Shown: positions 14,759 through 34,732 of the stretch, piece by piece
Numbering within the stretch: the stretch's first letter is position 1
Layout of the letters: every line of letters begins with the position of its first letter
IMG/VR virus record: IMGVR_UViG_3300045611_000267
Location: 1 to 40,453 of that record
Source: a virus
Direction: 5' to 3' (one strand)
DNA: 40,453 nt
Notes under the pieces: model-generated
What the model was told of the DNA's origin: nothing
What the model saw: only the letters and a program-made list of their open reading frames with translations
Databases searched by the model: none
Translations under genes and position numbers: made by a program

Positions 14759-15910
14759 TTATTTTTCGCCTAACCATTTTAACCTAATTCCATCTGTGGA
14801 ATTTAAAATTTTGATAGTCTTCATTTTTGACAATGTAATAATAGCTTTTTCAATCTTGTCATGGTCTCCATCCCGCCAAATAGCTCTTACAATATCTGCC
14901 TTAGCCATTTCTTTATGTTGTCGAATAAGGTGCATTATATTATGTACAATGCCAGCCTCAGAAGACAATCCAAAACTACCATAAACCATAGGCATTTTTA
15001 ATTCAATTTCATCCAGCCATTGCTTTGCTGTTTGCATGTCTATAACTTCAATATTTAATGATTTTCCATATGTTCTTGATATAGAAAAAAGAAGAGCAAG
15101 TTTTAATAAATGCTGAGGTTTTCGATGAAGATATGACTCAAAACGTTTATCATTGATAATATTGCGATTTTTTGACAAGTACCATTCATTATACCATTGT
15201 TGTGCTTCAGGAGTTTTCTTCCATTCTCCATTTAACAAATAAATACTCTGCAGTTTTTCAAGAATAGCTTTTTGTTTATCAACTGGAAAGTTTGGGTCAG
15301 GATTTAAATGTCGAGGAGTCTCTTCAAAAACAAATATAATTCTTGAAGTAAAACCAGAGCCAATTGCTTGCACAGGAATTACTGTTGAAATAACTTCTGG
15401 TTGAATACCACCAATCATATTCACCCATGTGTTTGTAACAATATTTTCCCCTTCATGTTGAGTAAAATATTTGAAAGTTTCCTGACAGTCGTAAAGTTTT
15501 ATTAGAGCTGTTATAAATTTAATATCCCGTTCCCCCATAAAAAACGCCCATTCGTCAGCTATAATATTATAAGATGCATGTGGAAATTCTTTGCCCTGAT
15601 AGCTGAAAAACTTTGTAGAGTCTTCAATCTCAGTATAAAGTCTGCGCTGAGTAATGCCATCGGGGGCAATAGCAACACCTTTTATTTTTTCTAATATATC
15701 TCGCATGAATTTCATAGCTGCTGTTTTTCGCACCGCTGGTGCTCCAACTAATACAAAATAACTATTTGCGAAAAGGTTTCCAAAGCCTTCTTTTATCCAG
15801 ACTTTTCTTTCAAGAACTCCAGCTATACAAGACAAACAAGCCGCAATGTGATATGACGTAGGAGCTTCAGACTCTTGAGTATAATTTATCCATTCTTCAA
15901 TCAAGCTCAT
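14759..15910 (-). CDS. DUF3987-like ATPase, putative replicative helicase
   Basis: 383 aa from ATG 15910, chosen over an upstream in-frame ATG (15937) because GAGG stands about 6 bases before it. N-terminal pattern (APTSYHIAACLSCIAGVLER, then NLFANSYFVLVG) is that of DUF3987, a RecA-fold family often serving as phage helicase or primase-helicase. Walker A is G56APAVRKT63, with Arg where Gly is usual before Lys. Walker B is NIIADE (D119/E120). The C-terminal about 80 residues look like a winged helix (KADIVRAIWRDGDHDKIEKA). It is the only helicase candidate seen, between small genes in the replication operon. Confidence 0.7.
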   Translation of the reverse strand: MSLIEEWINYTQESEAPTSYHIAACLSCIAGVLERKVWIKEGFGNLFANSYFVLVGAPAVRKTAAMKFMRDILEKIKGVAIAPDGITQRRLYTEIEDSTKFFSYQGKEFPHASYNIIADEWAFFMGERDIKFITALIKLYDCQETFKYFTQHEGENIVTNTWVNMIGGIQPEVISTVIPVQAIGSGFTSRIIFVFEETPRHLNPDPNFPVDKQKAILEKLQSIYLLNGEWKKTPEAQQWYNEWYLSKNRNIINDKRFESYLHRKPQHLLKLALLFSISRTYGKSLNIEVIDMQTAKQWLDEIELKMPMVYGSFGLSSEAGIVHNIMHLIRQHKEMAKADIVRAIWRDGDHDKIEKAIITLSKMKTIKILNSTDGIRLKWLGEK

Positions 15911-16154
15911 TTTTTGTCCTCTTTCTTTTATAAGCACAACCGCAACTTTTAGTAACCTCTGTTTTTAAATTAACCGCTCTGATAATTTTAGTTTTTCCAC
16001 AATCGCATTGACAGAGACAGTCAGATAAATAACCTTTCCAATAATGTTTTAATACTACTAATTTCCCAAATCTCTTACCAGTCAGGTCTTTTCGTTTTGA
16101 AATGGCAGCTTGTTTTAATCTTTCATATGTCAAAGTAACTTGTTTTCTTTCCAT
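15897..16154 (-). CDS. Zinc-ribbon protein of the HNH-accessory type
   Basis: 85 aa. The pattern DLTGKRFGKLVVL followed by CQCDCGKTKIIRAVNLKT and SCGC is the N-terminal DNA-binding ribbon typical of many phage HNH homing endonucleases; the HNH catalytic part is absent. Four Cys in C-x-C-x(n)-C-x-C probably bind zinc. It could be a stand-alone DNA-binding protein or a remnant of a homing endonuclease. It starts 4 bases after the polymerase-like gene, and its end overlaps the ATPase start. Confidence 0.7.
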   Translation of the reverse strand: MERKQVTLTYERLKQAAISKRKDLTGKRFGKLVVLKHYWKGYLSDCLCQCDCGKTKIIRAVNLKTEVTKSCGCAYKRKRTKNELD

Positions 16155-16157
16155 TTT

Positions 16158-18476
16158 TTATTCGCCCTCTTTTAGGAAATCATCAATATCCTTTACCTTT
16201 TCCCAATTATTGCCAATTTTTATTTTAACTGGAATAACAACAGGTATATTATGAATAAGAATTGGAACTGTCATTTGAGTTTTAATAGCTTTTGCTGTTT
16301 CGTAAACATTATCTTGTTGTCCTTGAAAAATAAGAGTATTATCAACTTGTAAAAGAAATTCAACATTATTTATTTCCAAAATAGCTTTTTTATACATATC
16401 TGCAACTGTTGATTGCAAGAAAAACATAATTGCTTCTCGAACTGTTTTGTTATCAGGTCTGCCAAGAAAAATATGTTTTCTGCCAAAAAGGTTGACAAGT
16501 GTTCTTGTTTCTTTTATCACATTTTCAATTTCTTTATGCCATTCTTGTATTTTTTTAAATCTTTCAAAATATATTTTCCGAAATTCAGCTATTTGTGTTT
16601 TTGTTATTGTCTGACCAAGTTCAAAAAGAATACTATTAGCTAAACTTTGATCTCCTATCATATAATTAAACCCTCGACAGATTTTTTTGCTAAGCTCAGT
16701 TTCTTTATTTGCGTTAGGAAATTGTTTAAAAATTGTAGTAGCATATTCTTTATAAACATCTACTCCTTGCTCAAAAATACTTATAAGCTCTAAGTCTTTT
16801 GCAACATATGCTATAATTTTCTCTTCAGCCTGATAGTAGTTAACAACATAAAGAAGACAGTTTTTATCAGCAAGAAACAATTTTTTTGCGCTATGTTTGA
16901 TATTTTCCAAATTACCACCTGTACCAAATGGAGACATTCTGCTGGATATCATGTTTGCTTCAGTTGTTGAGGTAAAAGTAACTCTTAATCTTTCGTCTTT
17001 ATCTATTTTTGTGCTGAAAAATTCATAGTCTTTGGAAATTTCCTTATAATTAATTATAGTTTCAAAAATAGGTAATGGATATTTACTTTGTATTTTTTTT
17101 ATTGTCTCAATATCAACTGTTTTTTTAGACTTTTTCTGTATAGCAGCAGGTAATTTTAAACTATTATATATCAGTTTTTTTAATTGAACTGGAGAACCCA
17201 AACTTATACCCTTACCTGATTTATTACAAACAGAGCAAGTTCTTACTTTTCTCTTTCCAGTAATTCCAGCACCCTTACATTTTGGACATTGCCAATTTTC
17301 AGGCAACAGAGTATTTGCTTGTTTTTCTAAAGCACTTTTTTCAGCTTTGTATTGTTTTCGCATTGTTTGTAATTGCTTTTTATCAAAACGAATGCCTTGC
17401 AAAGTATTATTTACAAAAACTGGTATTAATGACATTTCCTGTTGAAAGGTTTGCCAATTTTGGCAAATGGAAAGTTCATTTTTTAGAGCATCATAAAGTT
17501 CTCTTGTAACAGCAGCATCGGTGCCATTATATTTCCAGTACATTTCCCAATCCTCAACTTTTCTCCAATTCTTATTATCATCTTTCCAGTAAGGTTCATT
17601 TGTAAAAAGACTTGCTAAAAAAGCAAGATTTTTTGGTAGTTCTGGATGACAAACATACATAGCAAGCATTGTGTCAAAAACAAAGTTGTCTATTTTGAAA
17701 CCATCTTTTTTTAAATAGCACCAATCATAATGAAAATTTTGTCCAACTATTGGGAACGATAACGCCCACTGAATGCACTCTTGTATTTTTTGCCAGTCAG
17801 TTTCATTCCAGAAGTTTTCAGTATAATATTTTAATGGAAGAACAAATGAAAGATTTGCTGAAGGGGCTATACCAATGCAACTAATATATTTAAGTGAAAA
17901 AGTCTCAATATCTATTGCTACTACTTCTGTTTTTTCAAATAATTCTTTATGCTCGTATAGTAAATTTAAGTCCTGCACAGAACGGATTATTTGAATATTT
18001 CTTTGTGGTCTGACTATTAGCGAATGATATGCTTCTGTTTTGACTTTTCGTAAATCTGCTAAAACAATTGGTCGTAATTCCCATTTTTTCATAACGTCAG
18101 CAAGAGAAAAAGTTGGCAGAACTTTGATACCTGACTTAGATTGCAGAATTGAGCCTCGATACTTGGAAATTTCATGCTGTTGAGTAACAGCATGAAGGGC
18201 AAAACTTCCAAGCGGGACGATAATATTCGGTTTAAGAGCTGAAATTTCATTTTCCAGTTCCTGCCACCATTGTTTTAATTCATTTGTTGGAATCATGCCT
18301 TGAAAATAGAAAGTTTTAAAGCTACGAGAAAGTTTTCTTTTAACTACACTTGCAATATATATATTCTCACAATTAATTCCAGCTCTTTGTAAAAGTTTAT
18401 CAAATTCTTTATTTTCAAAAGACTCTTTTTCTGTCAGAAATGCTTCAACAAAAACTATTTTTGCTTGTTTTGTCAT
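16158..18476 (-). CDS. UDG-like / 3'-5' exonuclease / family-A polymerase-like protein with defective palm
   Basis: 772 aa from ATG 18476 (ATGA overlap; a longer start lacks this). Residues 5-150 resemble a family-4/SPO1-type uracil-DNA glycosylase fold (PNIIVPLGSFA, then YRGSIL) but lack the GE.PG and HP catalytic motifs. Exonuclease motifs are intact: D189-I-E191, N247-x3-D251, Y316-x3-D320. A C-x2-C-x13-C-x2-C zinc insert lies at 397-417. The polymerase fold is clear (TxxNMISS, NLENI, REAIMFFLQSTVAD), yet motif A reads VVNYYQAEEK (N546 for catalytic Asp) and motif C reads LQVDNTLIF (N713 for catalytic Asp). The motif-B Arg is missing. Probably an exonuclease or scaffold, not a normal polymerase. 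Confidence 0.8.
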   Translation of the reverse strand: MTKQAKIVFVEAFLTEKESFENKEFDKLLQRAGINCENIYIASVVKRKLSRSFKTFYFQGMIPTNELKQWWQELENEISALKPNIIVPLGSFALHAVTQQHEISKYRGSILQSKSGIKVLPTFSLADVMKKWELRPIVLADLRKVKTEAYHSLIVRPQRNIQIIRSVQDLNLLYEHKELFEKTEVVAIDIETFSLKYISCIGIAPSANLSFVLPLKYYTENFWNETDWQKIQECIQWALSFPIVGQNFHYDWCYLKKDGFKIDNFVFDTMLAMYVCHPELPKNLAFLASLFTNEPYWKDDNKNWRKVEDWEMYWKYNGTDAAVTRELYDALKNELSICQNWQTFQQEMSLIPVFVNNTLQGIRFDKKQLQTMRKQYKAEKSALEKQANTLLPENWQCPKCKGAGITGKRKVRTCSVCNKSGKGISLGSPVQLKKLIYNSLKLPAAIQKKSKKTVDIETIKKIQSKYPLPIFETIINYKEISKDYEFFSTKIDKDERLRVTFTSTTEANMISSRMSPFGTGGNLENIKHSAKKLFLADKNCLLYVVNYYQAEEKIIAYVAKDLELISIFEQGVDVYKEYATTIFKQFPNANKETELSKKICRGFNYMIGDQSLANSILFELGQTITKTQIAEFRKIYFERFKKIQEWHKEIENVIKETRTLVNLFGRKHIFLGRPDNKTVREAIMFFLQSTVADMYKKAILEINNVEFLLQVDNTLIFQGQQDNVYETAKAIKTQMTVPILIHNIPVVIPVKIKIGNNWEKVKDIDDFLKEGE

Positions 18477-18658
18477 TTTTTGTTTTGCAAAATCCATTCA
18501 GATGAAAGTAAATCAGATGAGAACAAATCTGACAGCAAAATATAACCATGATGGTTTTCTCTTGGACAACACATACCATTAAAAACAGTTCTGCAAACCA
18601 CACAAATTTTTGCTTCATTGTATGGTATTGCATAATATAGTGAAAAATAACAATCCAT
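18473..18658 (-). CDS. Small Cys/His-rich (zinc-ribbon-like) protein
   Basis: 61 aa. C-V-V-C, then CC and HH (residues 19-37) could bind zinc. An alternative overlapping frame (18445-18633) was not chosen, because this one ends with the ATGA overlap that starts the polymerase-like gene and begins 7 bases after the preceding stop. There is no strong ribosome site, so it is probably translated by coupling. Function unknown; perhaps a nucleic-acid-binding partner of its neighbours. Confidence 0.5.
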   Translation of the reverse strand: MDCYFSLYYAIPYNEAKICVVCRTVFNGMCCPRENHHGYILLSDLFSSDLLSSEWILQNKK

Positions 18659-19568: not shown

Positions 19569-19892
19569 TCATTCTTTTCCCTCCTTAATTGCTGTTTCTA
19601 ACACCAATGCAATGGCATTAGCACAGCTTAATCTATGCTCATTACTACTATGACACTGGATGCCTTTAATTGTTTGCACAATTTTTTTTACATCAGCATC
19701 CCGTTTAAGTGAAATAGACAAAAGTCTGCCAACAAGTTCTGTCATTGCTTTTGCACAAGTACCAGCTTTCCCTAAATTACAGAACACTTCCCGTATCTTG
19801 CCATTTTCCAAGTTGACAGTTACATACAATGCTCCACAAGCTGTTTCTGAACGTATTGTAACTCCATTAAGGAATGCAGGTCTTGTTGTCAT
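19569..19892 (-). CDS. Stand-alone TSCPD-domain protein (ribonucleotide-reductase-related)
   Basis: 107 aa. The core YVTVNLENGKIREVFCNLGK, then AGTCAKAMTELVGRLLS, then ADVKKIVQTIKGIQC, is the TSCPD domain otherwise found at the C-terminus of adenosylcobalamin-dependent ribonucleotide reductases and as small separate proteins. Cys 37, 46 and 80 sit at the conserved places. The catalytic reductase is absent from the window. It may regulate a host reductase or have another nucleotide-binding role; this is inference. AGAAGGAA precedes ATG 19892. It overlaps the end of the ATPase gene by 26 bases. Confidence 0.7.
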   Translation of the reverse strand: MTTRPAFLNGVTIRSETACGALYVTVNLENGKIREVFCNLGKAGTCAKAMTELVGRLLSISLKRDADVKKIVQTIKGIQCHSSNEHRLSCANAIALVLETAIKEGKE

Positions 19893-20652
19893 TTTCTTTT
19901 CCTTCTAAAGACTTTTTATAAGCTGCAAATTTGGAAAAAAGAACTTTTAAATCTGCCTCTTCATGCACATCAAGCCATGCCGCTCTTGTGCCAGCCTCAT
20001 ACGCTCCAAGACATCTGGTTTGCAATCTGTATTTTAGCGGTTTTCCGCCAACAACTTCAGTCCTGAAGACGAAATCAAACCGCCCTCCTATTGTTGTGGA
20101 TAGACGTCCAATTAAGGCTGGTTTGACGCTTATAGCTCCTGTTACTTGGTCTTTCTCAGGTTCATCGTGGCAGACAATAATAATATGACATGGCAAAGCG
20201 ACTATTTGAGAAATAAAATTTTGATATTCCACTCTGACTGCCGAATAGTCATTGCTGCCCATTTCACCAATTTGAGGCATTTGACCTGCCCGCCCCTTTT
20301 GAAAAAGCACACGGTTCATAATTACTTCTTGTAACATTGTGGAACCATCAACGGAAATCAGAAAAACTTCCTTATTATTAACCCTTAGCTTATTTTCTGA
20401 CTTCAGAGTATTCTGAATTTCAATAAGCTTTTTTTGTGCAAGAGTGAATGCAAGTGGTTGCATCAGATTGCTGTCTTGAAAAGTGTCAAATTCAATGTCT
20501 TTGCCAAGCACTGTCAACATTCCATCGTCAAAATCAAATACATAGCTTGGTTTGTCAAAAGTACCAATAAAGTGTGTTTTGCCAGTTTTTGGCGCACCGA
20601 CCAGTAAAATTTTAAAATAATAATTCTCCAGTGAAATGTTTTTTGCGTTCAT
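19867..20652 (-). CDS. Sak4-like RecA-fold ATPase (phage recombination)
   Basis: 261 aa. Walker A is GAPKTGKT at residues 19-26 after FKILLV; Walker B is FLISVDG (D102); HIIIVCHDE (about residue 156) is the sensor-like strand. It fits the AAA_24/Sak4 group, short RecA-core ATPases that promote single-strand annealing and exchange with a phage SSB. GGGAGG lies before ATG 20652, and a clear promoter lies at 20672-20701. Its neighbours, TSCPD and an SSB-like protein downstream and a Cas4/RecB-like nuclease upstream, make a recombination module. Confidence 0.75.
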   Translation of the reverse strand: MNAKNISLENYYFKILLVGAPKTGKTHFIGTFDKPSYVFDFDDGMLTVLGKDIEFDTFQDSNLMQPLAFTLAQKKLIEIQNTLKSENKLRVNNKEVFLISVDGSTMLQEVIMNRVLFQKGRAGQMPQIGEMGSNDYSAVRVEYQNFISQIVALPCHIIIVCHDEPEKDQVTGAISVKPALIGRLSTTIGGRFDFVFRTEVVGGKPLKYRLQTRCLGAYEAGTRAAWLDVHEEADLKVLFSKFAAYKKSLEGKENDNKTCIP

Positions 20653-21022: not shown

Positions 21023-21844
21023 TTATAGTTTCCATTCTGCTGTCTCATACATAGGGTTTTCATTCATGAGCTGAATTTGTTCGGAAAACGGCACTGGCAA
21101 CAAGCAAAAATCAAGGTATGAACATTGCGAATTATACGAATAACACTCTCCCATATTCTTTCTCCATTTTTTGACCTTGCGGTTTTCAGATATTAAGTTT
21201 GCTACATCCTGCACCCATTCTTGCCATTGTGCTGTTTCAAAAGGGCTTTTTGTTAGCAGTACTCTTTCAAACGCTGTGCGTGGTTTCTTTTCTTTGTCCC
21301 ATAAATGAGCTGGAACATGCAAAATATCAACCAAGACGCCCCATGCTGTTGAATAGTGATTTTTAAGCAAAGCATCATAACCAGTGTATTGCCAACTGGT
21401 TTCTGCAACAGGCACATATGTTGAAAGGTACAGAGAGGTAGTCTTATGATCAATAGCTGTTAGACCATAAACCCATTTTATAATCTTATCCAATTTTCCT
21501 ACAAAAACTAACTCATCTGTCAATGGCATTTCGTATTGTTTTTCAGTTGCGATAATTTCTTCAAATGGTTGATTTGCATAAGTTTTTGCGTATTCTCTTA
21601 TTAACACTTCTCCACATTCCACAGTACGTTTTTCATCAAGATTTTGTGGATAGTTGTCTTTAAAGAGCTGTATTGCTTTCTCTATATTTTTATCCATATA
21701 CCAGCTATCCATTGCCAAATGAATAGCGGTACCAAACAACAGAGGAGCTTGCGCTCCAATTTTAATCTTTTGCTCTTCATATCTCCAAAAATACCGTCTT
21801 GGACACCTTTCATACTCATTGAGCATTGAAAAATCTACTTTCAT
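21023..21844 (-). CDS. Cas4/RecB-like PD-(D/E)XK nuclease with Fe-S cysteines
   Basis: 273 aa from ATG 21844, which overlaps the preceding TGA and has GGAGG 9 bases before it. Nuclease motifs: H42 (FGTAIH), D119 (GKLDK), and D132-x-K134 (AIDHKTTS). C14 (ERCPRRYFW) together with C234, C241 and C247 matches the four-Cys Fe-S cluster of Cas4/AddB-type exonucleases. Phage members trim DNA ends for recombination. Its position upstream of a Sak4-like ATPase supports this. There is no sign of a CRISPR locus nearby. Confidence 0.8.
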   Translation of the reverse strand: MKVDFSMLNEYERCPRRYFWRYEEQKIKIGAQAPLLFGTAIHLAMDSWYMDKNIEKAIQLFKDNYPQNLDEKRTVECGEVLIREYAKTYANQPFEEIIATEKQYEMPLTDELVFVGKLDKIIKWVYGLTAIDHKTTSLYLSTYVPVAETSWQYTGYDALLKNHYSTAWGVLVDILHVPAHLWDKEKKPRTAFERVLLTKSPFETAQWQEWVQDVANLISENRKVKKWRKNMGECYSYNSQCSYLDFCLLPVPFSEQIQLMNENPMYETAEWKL

Positions 21845-22044
21845 TCGCTTGACCTCCATATTGTATTTGCAAGAGAAATAATAAAATTTTCTTTATCCTC
21901 GAAGTCCCACGATGTTTCCCATAGCCACATACCAAAATCTTCCAGTAGTTTTTCTTGCTGATAGTTGTTTGCAAGAAAAGAATTCTCAGTGAGCCATTCG
22001 CCAATTTCTCTTATTTTTTCTTCTGACAAGTTTATTTTTCTCAT
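21841..22044 (-). CDS. Small hypothetical protein
   Basis: 67 aa, acidic and helical with many Trp (KIREIGEWLTENSFLANNYQ; FGMWLWETSWDFEDKENF). Both ends are coupled: ATGA with the preceding gene and ATGA with the nuclease. GGAG stands 8 bases before ATG 22044. An alternative frame from 22004 is a shadow. No family recognised; tight coupling to the nuclease suggests similar expression levels, not necessarily a shared function. Confidence 0.6.
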   Translation of the reverse strand: MRKINLSEEKIREIGEWLTENSFLANNYQQEKLLEDFGMWLWETSWDFEDKENFIISLANTIWRSSE

Positions 22045-28474: not shown

Positions 28475-28993
28475 ATGGCTATTGGTTATTTTAAGAAAGA
28501 ACTTGCAAGAGATATTTGTATTGGTCAAAGTGAAGAAAAAATCTTAAAAAAATACAAACGGTGGAGGCTTTCAAAAAATCGTCTTCGTCATCTCGTTACT
28601 GAAGACGAAGAGTTTATGGCAGAGCTTTCCCGTTTGAATAAGCTTGCTGACGAAGTGGCTATGCAAATAAAAAAACGTATGGTTTTGCTGTCTGTTGAGG
28701 CTCTTGACAGAGTAGAGGAAATTATTCGTATTCCTAAAACTGTTGAAATAGATGGTAAAAATCAACTAAATCCTGATTGGAACCAAAAACTTATCAAAGA
28801 AACCTCTGTTGACCTTCTAAAAATTAGTGGAGTAAGTGAGGTTGAAAAAGGCAAAAGTTCTGAGCTTATTGTACGTCTTTCCAGAGAAGCTCCAGTTGCT
28901 GAAATAAAGGTCGAAGAGCCAGAACCCTTACCAGTCGGTGAGATTATTTCGTTTCCCATAAAAATAGACGAAAAAAAGGTTGCAAATGTCTGA
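28475..28993 (+). CDS. Putative small terminase subunit
   Basis: 172 aa. The N-terminal half is a basic helical region (ILKKYKRWRLSKNRLRHLVT) that could be an HTH; a central long helix runs through residues 50-85. The C-terminus is Pro/Glu-rich (EVEEPEPLP-like) and could contact the large subunit. AAAGGAGG lies before ATG 28475. It precedes the large terminase with an 8-base overlap, which is the main reason for the call. Confidence 0.65.
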   Translation: MAIGYFKKELARDICIGQSEEKILKKYKRWRLSKNRLRHLVTEDEEFMAELSRLNKLADEVAMQIKKRMVLLSVEALDRVEEIIRIPKTVEIDGKNQLNPDWNQKLIKETSVDLLKISGVSEVEKGKSSELIVRLSREAPVAEIKVEEPEPLPVGEIISFPIKIDEKKVANV

Positions 28994-30374
28994 GTTAGAC
29001 ATAAAACTCAGTAAAACTCAATACGGTTTTGTCGTTTCTAATGCTGTTATTACTGCAATAGTTGGAGCGCAAGGGGAAGGCAAAACTTTCAGTGGTTTTG
29101 CTGCTGCTCTTTTTCATGCCTCTAAGCAGCCTCATAAAATGCGTGGAGCTATTATCAGAGATACTTTTGAAAATCTTAAGAGAATGACTATACCGTCTCT
29201 TATGGAAGGTTTTCCTGAAGTTTGCAGATTTAGTCAAGGTGGTAAAAAACTTTATGCTCCAAAAATGGAACTTGATTTGATGGGCATAGACGATTTTTCT
29301 GCTCTTTCAAAACTTCAAGGTGCAGAATATTCTTTTATCTGGCTCGAAGAGCCTGCTCCAATCCTTGATAAAGGTAATTCTGGACTGCCCGAAGCCGTTT
29401 TCTCAATCGGTCTTACAAGAGTTGCTCGTCAGAAAAACTCTATTCCCCGTCTGCAAATCACAATGAACCCTGCTTCTGAGGAACATTGGACATATCATGT
29501 TTTATACGAAGACCCTATTAATAATCATCCAGATTACCCTGGAATATCTACTGAGGTCTTTAATATTTCATCAGGAGAAAATCCTTATATTTCAAACATT
29601 TCTCGTGCAACTGTTCGTGCAGGCTATCGTGATCGCCCAGAGCTTTATCAAAGGTATGTTTTAGGCAAGTTTTCTTTTGTTTCTCTTGGCGAAAGCGTTA
29701 CGCCTGAATATAGTGAAACAATACATCGTTCAAAAGACAAACTAAATCCTATTGTAGGAGTTTCTGGACTTCGTTTCTGGGATGGCGGTCTTTTTCCAGC
29801 AATAGTTATTGCTCAACTTACTCCTTCTGGCAGGCTTTTTGTTCTTGATACAGTTATTGGAGAAAATATTGGCGTTAAGCAATTAATTCTTACAAAACTA
29901 AATCCTCTTCTTTCCTCTCCCCGTTACAATAAAATTTCAGATTGGCGTGATATTGGAGACCCTGCAATGACAAATAAAGAACAATCAGATTCTTCGCAAA
30001 GTGCATCTGCCATTATAAATGATACTCTTGAAACTAATTTTGAAGGAGGTCAAATTCACTGGCACCCTCGGCGTGAAGCTCTTAAAGAGGCTCTCTCCCG
30101 TATGGTAGGTGGGGAGCCTTTAGTTCAAGTTTCTTTTCACGAGGGACACCTTCACAGAGCCTTAAGAGGCGGCTGGCATTATAAAAAAGACAATAGTGGT
30201 CAAGTCATACGTGATAAACCTATTAAAGATAAACATTCTCATGTGGGAGATGCTTTTTCTTATGGTATTGGCAAAATTTTACCCTGGAAATCCCGTCAGT
30301 CTGTACCAAAATTCTTTTCAGAAAAACTCCGTCAGCGTGGAGCTGGCTATGCAATCAAGGGAAGAAAAATTTAG
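28986..30374 (+). CDS. Large terminase subunit (ATPase and nuclease)
   Basis: 462 aa from ATG 28986 (AAAGG 7 bases upstream; an in-frame TTG at 28980 is less likely). Walker A GAQGEGKT at residues 27-34; Walker B FIWLEE at 117-122; a coupling-like TMNPAS near 159. The RNase H-like nuclease has D266 (FWDGG), D325 (IGDPAM) and D422 (HVGDAFSYG). It drives headful or site-specific packaging into the portal. Length and domain order are normal. Confidence 0.9.
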   Translation: MSELDIKLSKTQYGFVVSNAVITAIVGAQGEGKTFSGFAAALFHASKQPHKMRGAIIRDTFENLKRMTIPSLMEGFPEVCRFSQGGKKLYAPKMELDLMGIDDFSALSKLQGAEYSFIWLEEPAPILDKGNSGLPEAVFSIGLTRVARQKNSIPRLQITMNPASEEHWTYHVLYEDPINNHPDYPGISTEVFNISSGENPYISNISRATVRAGYRDRPELYQRYVLGKFSFVSLGESVTPEYSETIHRSKDKLNPIVGVSGLRFWDGGLFPAIVIAQLTPSGRLFVLDTVIGENIGVKQLILTKLNPLLSSPRYNKISDWRDIGDPAMTNKEQSDSSQSASAIINDTLETNFEGGQIHWHPRREALKEALSRMVGGEPLVQVSFHEGHLHRALRGGWHYKKDNSGQVIRDKPIKDKHSHVGDAFSYGIGKILPWKSRQSVPKFFSEKLRQRGAGYAIKGRKI

Positions 30375-30726: not shown

Positions 30727-32544
30727 ATGATATTTGACATTGATTTTAAAGAAATGAAAGAACGAATAAGAGCTACACAAGCTCTTGCGAAAGAAAATCC
30801 CAAACATTTTATAGACTATTGCGATGCTTGTTATTTTGAAAGCTTTTCTGCAAACAAACCACTTCGTGAGACATGGGATGTTTGTTGGAAAGCTTATCAG
30901 TTAGAAGAGACTCAAAGTCTTACAAAAGAAGATTGGCAGTCAGACATTCATCTTCCAAAGGCTTTTTCTACTGTTCAACAGGCTAAAGCAATAATTCGTA
31001 AAGCTCTTGATACAAATAATCTTTATACAGTTGTCCCTCTTGACAAAACAGATTCTCAAATAGAGTCTTTTTTAAAAGCTGCTAATTCAATAATCAATGC
31101 TTTTCAAGGAGAACGGCAAGGAAAATTTGCAAATCGTTTTATAGATGCGATCGAAATGGGTTTTGTTATTGGACAATCGATGGAAATGATACCTCGTTGG
31201 AAAGGTGGCTCTTTTTATTGGGAACTTGTTGAACCTTGGAAGATTTTTCGTGATCCGAATGCCTCTTGCAGAAATCCGTGGAGTGGTAATTATTGGATAC
31301 ATGAGGAATGGATTGATTGGTGGGTTCTAAAAGAACTTGCTAAAAAAGGTATCATAGATAATCTAAATCAACTTTCTAAAAGTGGTTCTTCTTTTTCAAA
31401 TAGTTCCTTTAAAGAAGAAGAGACAGCTAAAAAAGGTCAAATATATCAAAGACATCGTTTTATTTCTTCTCATCAAGTCAGGGAATTTTGGGGAACAATA
31501 GTAGATGAAAATGGTGAGTTACTTCTTCCGAATGGGCGTTTTGCTGTTTGTTCAAACACACTCTTGAAAATTCCAACGGTTAACCCTTATCGTAACATTA
31601 GGTTTCCTGGAGTTTCTTTTTCTCCAATCCCTCATTTGCTTCGTTTTGAGGGACGGGGTATTTTAGAAGCTGCCGTTCCACTTTTGGAGTTTTTTAACAA
31701 TCTTTTCAATATGCATATAGATAATCTTAATTGGCAAATTAACTCTCCTAAAGAACTAACTCCTGGTGTTCTTATTGACCCGACTGACCTTGATATTTAC
31801 CCTGGCAAAATTCTTTTAAAACAAGCTGGTTATGAAAGTATTCCTGCTCTTCTTGAGTCTCAAAAACCTTCAAAAACAATGGAGGTTCTTTCTAATGCTC
31901 AATATATTGAAAAACTTTGGCAAAATGCTACTTTTGTGAGTGAGTTTCTTGAAGGACTGCCTGGTACCCGAACAGATATTACACGAGGTGAAGTAGAACT
32001 AAAAACAGAGCAAGGACTTGGGGTTTTTCATTCAATAGCAAGAGATATTGAAGAGGGTGGACTTAATGCTCTTTGGGCTGCTTATGATATCATATGTTAC
32101 AATCTTACTTTAAATAATCCAACTTTTCAGTCTGCCTTACAACCTTATTTTAAAGAAATCAGTCCTAAAATAGTTTATAATCTTCGTTATGAATTGCCAA
32201 ATTATTCAACAGTTTCTATGTCAGGTATTAATAATCTAATCAAACGCATGGATACTATCAAACGTCTTGAGGCTGCTATGATGAAAGCTGAGTCTCCTGT
32301 TCTTGGTCATTACATCAATTCATACAAGCTTCTTGAAGCTTATTTTGACATTCTTGACCTTACTCGTTATGAGCCTCTTAAAAATGAGCAACAAATTCAA
32401 CAAGAAGGTGCTCAACAGAATGAAACGGCTGCTCTTGCTGCTATGGCAGGTAAAGTTCAAGGACAAAGTGGTTCTTTCCCTGTTCCAGGTGGAAATAGCG
32501 GACAGTTTCGTAATCTTCCGCAAATAATGGAAAATATTGCATAG
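30727..32544 (+). CDS. Portal protein
   Basis: 605 aa, the normal size for a podovirus portal. It has the typical acidic and aromatic start, a central wing with YWELVEPWKIFRDPNA and EEWIDWW, a long stem helix region (about residues 295-345), and a Gln-rich C-terminus (QIQQEGAQQNETAALAAMAG). GAGGTG precedes ATG 30727. It forms the dodecameric vertex through which terminase packages DNA. Called on gene order (terminase, portal, scaffold, capsid) and general look. Confidence 0.75.
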   Translation: MIFDIDFKEMKERIRATQALAKENPKHFIDYCDACYFESFSANKPLRETWDVCWKAYQLEETQSLTKEDWQSDIHLPKAFSTVQQAKAIIRKALDTNNLYTVVPLDKTDSQIESFLKAANSIINAFQGERQGKFANRFIDAIEMGFVIGQSMEMIPRWKGGSFYWELVEPWKIFRDPNASCRNPWSGNYWIHEEWIDWWVLKELAKKGIIDNLNQLSKSGSSFSNSSFKEEETAKKGQIYQRHRFISSHQVREFWGTIVDENGELLLPNGRFAVCSNTLLKIPTVNPYRNIRFPGVSFSPIPHLLRFEGRGILEAAVPLLEFFNNLFNMHIDNLNWQINSPKELTPGVLIDPTDLDIYPGKILLKQAGYESIPALLESQKPSKTMEVLSNAQYIEKLWQNATFVSEFLEGLPGTRTDITRGEVELKTEQGLGVFHSIARDIEEGGLNALWAAYDIICYNLTLNNPTFQSALQPYFKEISPKIVYNLRYELPNYSTVSMSGINNLIKRMDTIKRLEAAMMKAESPVLGHYINSYKLLEAYFDILDLTRYEPLKNEQQIQQEGAQQNETAALAAMAGKVQGQSGSFPVPGGNSGQFRNLPQIMENIA

Positions 32545-33781: not shown

Positions 33782-34732
33782 ATGCCAACTTTTACATGGA
33801 GTATAGATATTACAAATGGTGTTATGTTAAATCACGCTCTTTCTTCAAAGCTTCGTTTTGCAAGTGTGGCAAACAGTGTATTTGCACCTTTTGTTCGACC
33901 TGAACCAAATTATGGTGCAAAGAAAGGGCAATCAGTAACAATTCAACGTATTCGCAATATTTCAGAGCCAACAAGTGCAGTTCTTGTCAGTGGAACCCGT
34001 ATTCCTGTGGATGCTTTCTCGGTCTCAACCACAAGCGTAACGCCTGTTGAACTTGGCAGGGCTATTGAGTATGAGGACCTCGCAAATCAACTTAATAGTT
34101 TCGATCTCGATCAGCCTATTCAGCAGAAGCTTCGTCAACAGATGACTCTTGTGATGGATACAAAAGCAGCAGATGCTTTCAAGACTGCAAAGCTTTGTTT
34201 TATCCCGACTTCTGTATCTGCTGGCACATGGGACACAGACGGAACACCATCCACAACAGCACTTGCTAATTTGACTATTGCTCATTGCGGAACAATCCGT
34301 GATTATCTTATGGACACTGTTCATGCCCCTACTTTCGATGATGGTAAATACGTAAGCATAGCTTCAACCAAAGCCTTGCGTGGCATTAAGAACGATCCTG
34401 AGTTTGTTGATTGGCGGAAGTATCTTCAGCCAGGTGATGTTCTGTATAAGAGTGAGGTTGGCTCAGTTGAGGCAATTCGTTTCATTGAATGCACTCACAC
34501 TAATGCTCTTAGTAATGCGAAAGGCTCTGGTAGTGTGCTTGGTGAGGCAGTAGTTTTTGGAACAGATGCAGTTATTCTTGCTGAAGTCATTGCCCCTCAT
34601 CTTAGAGCAGCTCTCCCTGGGGATTTTGGCAGAATAAAGGCAATTGCATGGTATGGACTCCTAAATTTCGGGATAGTTTGGGATACTGCAAATGATGGAG
34701 AAGCTAACATTGTTAGAATCACCTCTGCTTAA
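33782..34732 (+). CDS. Major capsid protein (HK97-fold, N4 gp56-like)
   Basis: 316 aa. Core features: VFAPFVRPEPNYGAKKGQSV, RIRNISEPTS, ELGRAIEYEDLANQLNSFDL, then DTKAADAFKT, ending in an A-domain-like part (IAPHLRAALPGDFGR). This is the phage coat pattern resembling the N4 gp56 family. GGAGG lies 8 bases before ATG 33782. It is the main shell protein, consistent with a strong ribosome site and with the hairpin region after the next gene. Confidence 0.8.
   Translation: MPTFTWSIDITNGVMLNHALSSKLRFASVANSVFAPFVRPEPNYGAKKGQSVTIQRIRNISEPTSAVLVSGTRIPVDAFSVSTTSVTPVELGRAIEYEDLANQLNSFDLDQPIQQKLRQQMTLVMDTKAADAFKTAKLCFIPTSVSAGTWDTDGTPSTTALANLTIAHCGTIRDYLMDTVHAPTFDDGKYVSIASTKALRGIKNDPEFVDWRKYLQPGDVLYKSEVGSVEAIRFIECTHTNALSNAKGSGSVLGEAVVFGTDAVILAEVIAPHLRAALPGDFGRIKAIAWYGLLNFGIVWDTANDGEANIVRITSA

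Follow-up and report, generated by a model that had tools for sequence, protein, structure and literature searches.

Among described systems, the closest to the protein reported here are the phage family-A DNA polymerases of phrog_17 that also carry UDG-like and exonuclease domains, such as those of Microcystis phage Mel-JY34, Desulfofustis phage LS06-2018-MD01 and Bacteriophage sp. ctMlz233, with the SPO1-like phi18 more distant. These agree in domain order, exonuclease motifs, fold and gene neighbours with the polymerase of the window (the whole 40,453-base stretch of DNA analysed here). However, they carry both palm aspartates and the arginine equivalent to E. coli R668, whereas the window's protein is without all three. 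The Klenow fragment of E. coli Pol I is likewise similar in fold and motif positions, but its D705, D882, R668 and R754 correspond to Asn, Asn, Met and Thr in the window.

The loss of one of the two active sites of a family-A polymerase has been described in the opposite direction. Phage divPolA1 (PMC11348598) and the PolA2/APEX proteins of Actinobacteria (PMC12926913) have lost the exonuclease and kept the polymerase, making the window their mirror image. A subset of bacterial PolX proteins combines an inactivated polymerase site with an active PHP exonuclease (PMC12926913), as the window combines a lost polymerase site with a kept exonuclease, but these are family X bacterial repair proteins with a PHP nuclease. 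The C-terminal half of Pol epsilon (PMC2669801) and chordopoxvirus F12 (PMC4304020) are reported to be inactivated modules with other roles; both retain a dead polymerase fold, as the window does, but belong to family B. No phage family-A polymerase with both palm aspartates lost and its exonuclease intact was found described in the open-access literature. Exonuclease loss with the polymerase kept is already described for phage and cellular family-A enzymes.

For the effect of such a loss, the family-A polymerase of Thermus phage Tt72, in which motif C has the Asp-Ser of the window's relatives, offers a guide: when either catalytic Asp is changed to alanine, about 4% of the activity remains and DNA is bound much as by the parent variant, and alanine at the motif C Ser keeps 76% activity (PMC9324360). 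The Tt72 substitutions are to alanine, however, and the window's residues are asparagines, a milder change.

The fusion gene and its replication module

The window is a linear IMG/VR virus record with a GC content of 36%. Structural genes lie on the plus strand at both of its ends and replication genes on the minus strand, running from about 26 down to 14.7 kb, which gives it the appearance of a nearly complete genome, permuted and broken inside the structural genes; 40-45 kb is the size of phages carrying the same replication module. A second record (G012) shares several structural genes with the window in the same order, and the comparison suggests a gap of perhaps about 1 kb at the break, too small to hide a polymerase. 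The main features are as follows.

2-12 kb, plus strand: virion genes
14759-15937, minus strand: DUF3987 "primase/helicase" of the polymerase's module, motifs intact
16158-18497, minus strand: coding sequence for the 779-aa fusion protein (P0001), with a UDG-like, a 3'-5' exonuclease and a family-A polymerase domain
19867-20652, minus strand: Sak4-like AAA ATPase from the module, with both Walker motifs (A and B) intact
21023-21859, minus strand: PD-(D/E)XK nuclease from the module, retaining the catalytic D and DxK
28980-30374, plus strand: terminase
30727-32544, plus strand: portal-like gene
33782-34732, plus strand: major head protein

The PD-(D/E)XK nuclease, the Sak4-like ATPase and the DUF3987 "primase" recur next to related polymerases, and thus the 779-aa protein occupies the polymerase's place in the module. 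Together these four genes are a widespread phage replication module in which the fusion is the usual polymerase, and in the window the neighbour genes of this UDG-exo-pol module are present with their motifs intact. An earlier note, made from the sequence alone, had reported no other polymerase. The record indeed contains a single family-A match, and the larger ORFs scanned match other things or nothing.

The same note had begun the gene at 18476. That position is the second ATG (codon 8), and the ORF reaches 18497; the other end, at 16158, stands. The protein's domains are:

18075-18413, minus strand: UDG-like domain, residues 29-141
17472-17984, minus strand: 3'-5' exonuclease domain, residues 172-342, above the PF01612 cut-off
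17226-17288, minus strand: four-cysteine CPKC...CSVC insertion (C404, C407, C421, C424) between two thumb helices
16200-17228, minus strand: family-A polymerase domain (PF00476), residues 424-766

Homology to family-A polymerases is clear, with PF00476 scoring 132 bits where the cut-off is 34.3. AlphaFold was run on the 779-aa protein with 60 relatives in the alignment, and the model has a complete right-hand fold (pLDDT 90.2, pTM 0.89). Its best PDB matches are the Klenow and Bst fragments, Klenow being the best both by structure and by profile.

The polymerase and exonuclease active sites

Residues of the two sites, with E. coli equivalents in brackets for the palm and fingers, are located as follows.

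18102-18107, minus strand: Ser-Leu in place of the UDG HP motif
17904-17912, minus strand: Exo I, D196 and E198
17724-17738, minus strand: Exo II, N254 and D258
17517-17531, minus strand: Exo III, Y323 and D327
16950-16952, minus strand: M516 for the invariant Arg (R668)
16839-16841, minus strand: N553 (AAC) for the motif A catalytic Asp (D705)
16662-16700, minus strand: motif B, with T600 (R754), K604 (K758), R608 (His in the family; F762) and Y612 (Y766)
16413-16415, minus strand: Q695, the equivalent of Q849, kept
16335-16343, minus strand: motif C, D719-N720-T721 for His-Asp-Ser, N720 corresponding to D882

Each of the substitutions that the earlier note had read in the palm and fingers was borne out. 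The motif A asparagine is confirmed to the base, and that of motif C is AAT at 16338-16340, preceded by GAT for D719. The TGRLSS arginine is M516, and the missing motif B arginine is T600. Counts among relatives come from an alignment of 135 rows and cover those relatives with a residue at the position in question. The motif A Asp, the motif C Asp and the R668 arginine are each found in 130 of 130 relatives; the arginine at the R754 position is found in 112 of 131, and the note's reading is upheld there as well. K604 was considered as the equivalent of R754 and ruled out by the Klenow profile alignment, and a changed genetic code was rejected because the exonuclease Asp of this gene is itself encoded by GAT. 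Asn followed by Tyr or Thr deamidates slowly, and restoration of Asp by deamidation was set aside on that ground.

The family profile places the N553, N720 and M516 columns on Klenow D705, D882 and R668. To compare the window with its family, 53 representatives at below 65% identity were drawn from the roughly 130 relatives, and columns invariant in all of them were used, an earlier core-clade set having excluded the window's nearer relatives. Six palm/fingers columns are invariant among the representatives; the window breaks exactly three of them and no other row breaks any. The end branches of L010, L007 and L005 are similar in length to that of the window, yet these three keep all six columns. 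That the changes stem from a sequencing or assembly error is very improbable indeed: the gene comes from one metagenomic record, but there are several separate changes with no frameshift and with clean codon periodicity over 779 codons, and random hits would not select three of six invariant columns.

The exonuclease presents the opposite picture. Its three motifs are complete, as the note had found, and carry the residues of the DnaQ-like 3'-5' exonuclease of Pol I (D196, E198, D258, Y323 and D327). At near-invariant positions, the window keeps 17 of 17 in the exonuclease versus 10 of 20 in the palm and fingers (Fisher p 0.0006). As read from its sequence, the loss of the palm metal site with an intact exonuclease, fold and module is unique among the relatives found.

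The polymerase site is not stripped of all its landmarks, since the equivalents of K758 (K604), Y766 (Y612), Q849 (Q695) and E710 (E558) are kept; the R712 position is variable across the polymerase family. The protein might therefore be imagined as an active polymerase with a rewired metal site built from D719, E558 and an extra E559, perhaps capable of slow primer extension or of extension with Mn. Acidic residues do adjoin both lost positions, the K758, Y766 and Q849 equivalents remain, the palm is not decaying and the record has a single family-A polymerase. Against this, in the predicted model N553 ends the motif A strand and D719-N720 lies in the turn of the hairpin that motif C forms. 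Because N720 lies in that turn, D719 is no simple substitute for it, and both the profile alignment and the predicted hairpin place N720, not D719, at the catalytic position. When other acidic residues were sought at the metal positions, as the note had proposed, the profile and the predicted secondary structure offered no simple register shift by which a different Asp would fall there. Furthermore, no Asp adjoins the motif A position, R668 and R754 are lost too, and none of the relatives uses such a site. We consider a rewired, active polymerase improbable.

The UDG-like domain has lost GExPG and has its HP motif replaced, and hence lacks the motifs of an active member of the UDG superfamily. 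The note's observation that HP is missing is correct, but it had taken this as a further independent loss. The HP His is present in 83 of 128 relatives and missing in about one third, and because many relatives whose polymerase site is intact share the loss, it is not independent evidence. In this polymerase family, inactivity of the fused UDG-like domain may be common.

Among the relatives compared, only the window has the four-cysteine thumb insertion. Its place is that of the thioredoxin-binding insertion in T7 polymerase, and it may bind zinc or serve as a docking point. A search turned up no convincing case of another phage polymerase with such a thumb insertion. The insertion, being confined to the window and located in the loop that joins two thumb helices, is what would favour a pure scaffold, in which neither active site matters and the fold joins DNA or partners with the four cysteines as docking site. 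A scaffold would need none of the exonuclease catalytic residues, however, and all of them are kept along with every near-invariant position of that domain, which makes this reading decidedly improbable.

Decay, retention and a possible role

Faster evolution of the palm was looked for and not seen: the palm/exonuclease distance ratio of the window ranks 14 of 54. The palm coding region shows strong periodicity, with GC by codon position of 0.41/0.27/0.17, and the 779 codons contain no stop or frameshift. In simulation, the probability of finding no stop falls to about 6% at 0.058 neutral changes per site and to about 1% at 0.087, so a loss long ago with neutral drift ever since is unlikely, although a very recent one may have happened. 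The ordinary palm rate, the absence of stops and the codon periodicity together favour, on this sequence-based evidence, retention by selection over long decay. The ten of 20 near-invariant palm positions that have changed could alternatively mean relaxed constraint. The note's preference for repurposing over decay thus holds insofar as long decay is disfavoured, without the UDG loss as support.

A more recent decay would have the lineage switch to a host or helper polymerase, with the asparagines as early missense changes in a gene that is being lost. Those altered palm positions would fit this, as would the fact that no sister lineage found has the same changes. Nevertheless, a stop would be expected in more than 90% of cases after 0.058 neutral changes per site and the reading frame is free of stops and frameshifts, the palm rate is ordinary and the periodicity strong, the exonuclease is fully conserved, the partner genes are intact, and the changes fall exactly on invariant catalytic positions. 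Recent decay is therefore, in our judgement, unlikely.

Since Asn stands at both positions where an aspartate would hold the catalytic metals, DNA synthesis would be lost; with two arginines gone as well, the protein should by inference support little or no synthesis. We put it at slightly better than an even chance that this is a polymerase-dead, exonuclease-competent, formerly replicative polymerase, probably a 3'-end trimmer, with a host polymerase making the DNA. The ancestor would have been this phage module's replicative enzyme of family A. Its thumb and palm would now hold primer-template or single-stranded 3' ends, the exonuclease would trim the ends so held, the Sak4-like ATPase and the PD-(D/E)XK nuclease would be its partners in recombination-linked replication or repair, and a host polymerase would supply DNA synthesis. 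In this account we infer that polymerase activity is absent and exonuclease activity present, and likewise what the protein does and that a host polymerase is used. Put more broadly, a polymerase has probably turned into a DNA-end-trimming or DNA-holding protein, with the genome copied some other way. More tentatively, and at less than even confidence, we suggest a narrower version in which the replicative polymerase has become a dedicated 3'-5' exonuclease and 3'-end-binding cofactor, with the four-cysteine thumb insertion as a new element, serving a host polymerase.

If the trimming reading is true, an exonuclease has arisen here in nature from a family-A polymerase that retains its fold and its gene module. 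What looks like a phage's only polymerase would then show that the place of such an enzyme in its module can persist for a nuclease or DNA-binding function alone. The protein would also offer a natural separation of function with which to study proofreading and 3'-end trimming in trans. "DNA polymerase" annotations, which are widely used as markers of phage replication, may be catalytically empty.

Relatives and neighbouring genes

A search for close relatives with the same Asn pair, which the note had suggested, was run and retrieved no sister, so that the pair rests on one record. By tblastn, 427 phage records were retrieved, every one below 60% identity, and alignment-based scans of IMG/VR returned 80 and 58 loci, the nearest about 29% identical over the protein. 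The Asn pair was not found in sisters by a single-protein IMG/VR scan and the two alignment scans, nor by DUF3987 and portal scans and one genome scan, and a DNA pattern search for the LLQVDN motif retrieved no protein with the pair. Relatives of the capsid and terminase mostly have no polymerase relative in the DNA examined. One record related through its major head protein (G010; L180:16051-18673, plus strand) has its polymerase divided between two ORFs, one for UDG and exonuclease and one for the palm, the latter with Asp in motifs A and C. A split polymerase also occurs in Caulobacter phage Kuura and Vibrio phage VS-ABTNL-3. The sole relative from a genome collection (L156) is a 45.5-kb contig of a Nitrososphaera MAG, roughly the size of these phages and possibly a virus contig inside the MAG bin.

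Two small ORFs lie near the polymerase gene:

15897-16154, minus strand: 85-aa ORF, located between the genes for the polymerase and DUF3987
19569-19892, minus strand: free-standing TSCPD domain, 107 aa

The 85-aa ORF has no HNH domain and resembles an internal part of phrog_374 HNH endonucleases (LTGKRFGKLVVL...CDCG); it is possibly a homing endonuclease remnant or a free-standing DNA-binding domain. TSCPD is elsewhere the C-terminal domain of some ribonucleotide reductases, and in one relative (L080) it lies inside a much longer ORF downstream of the polymerase.
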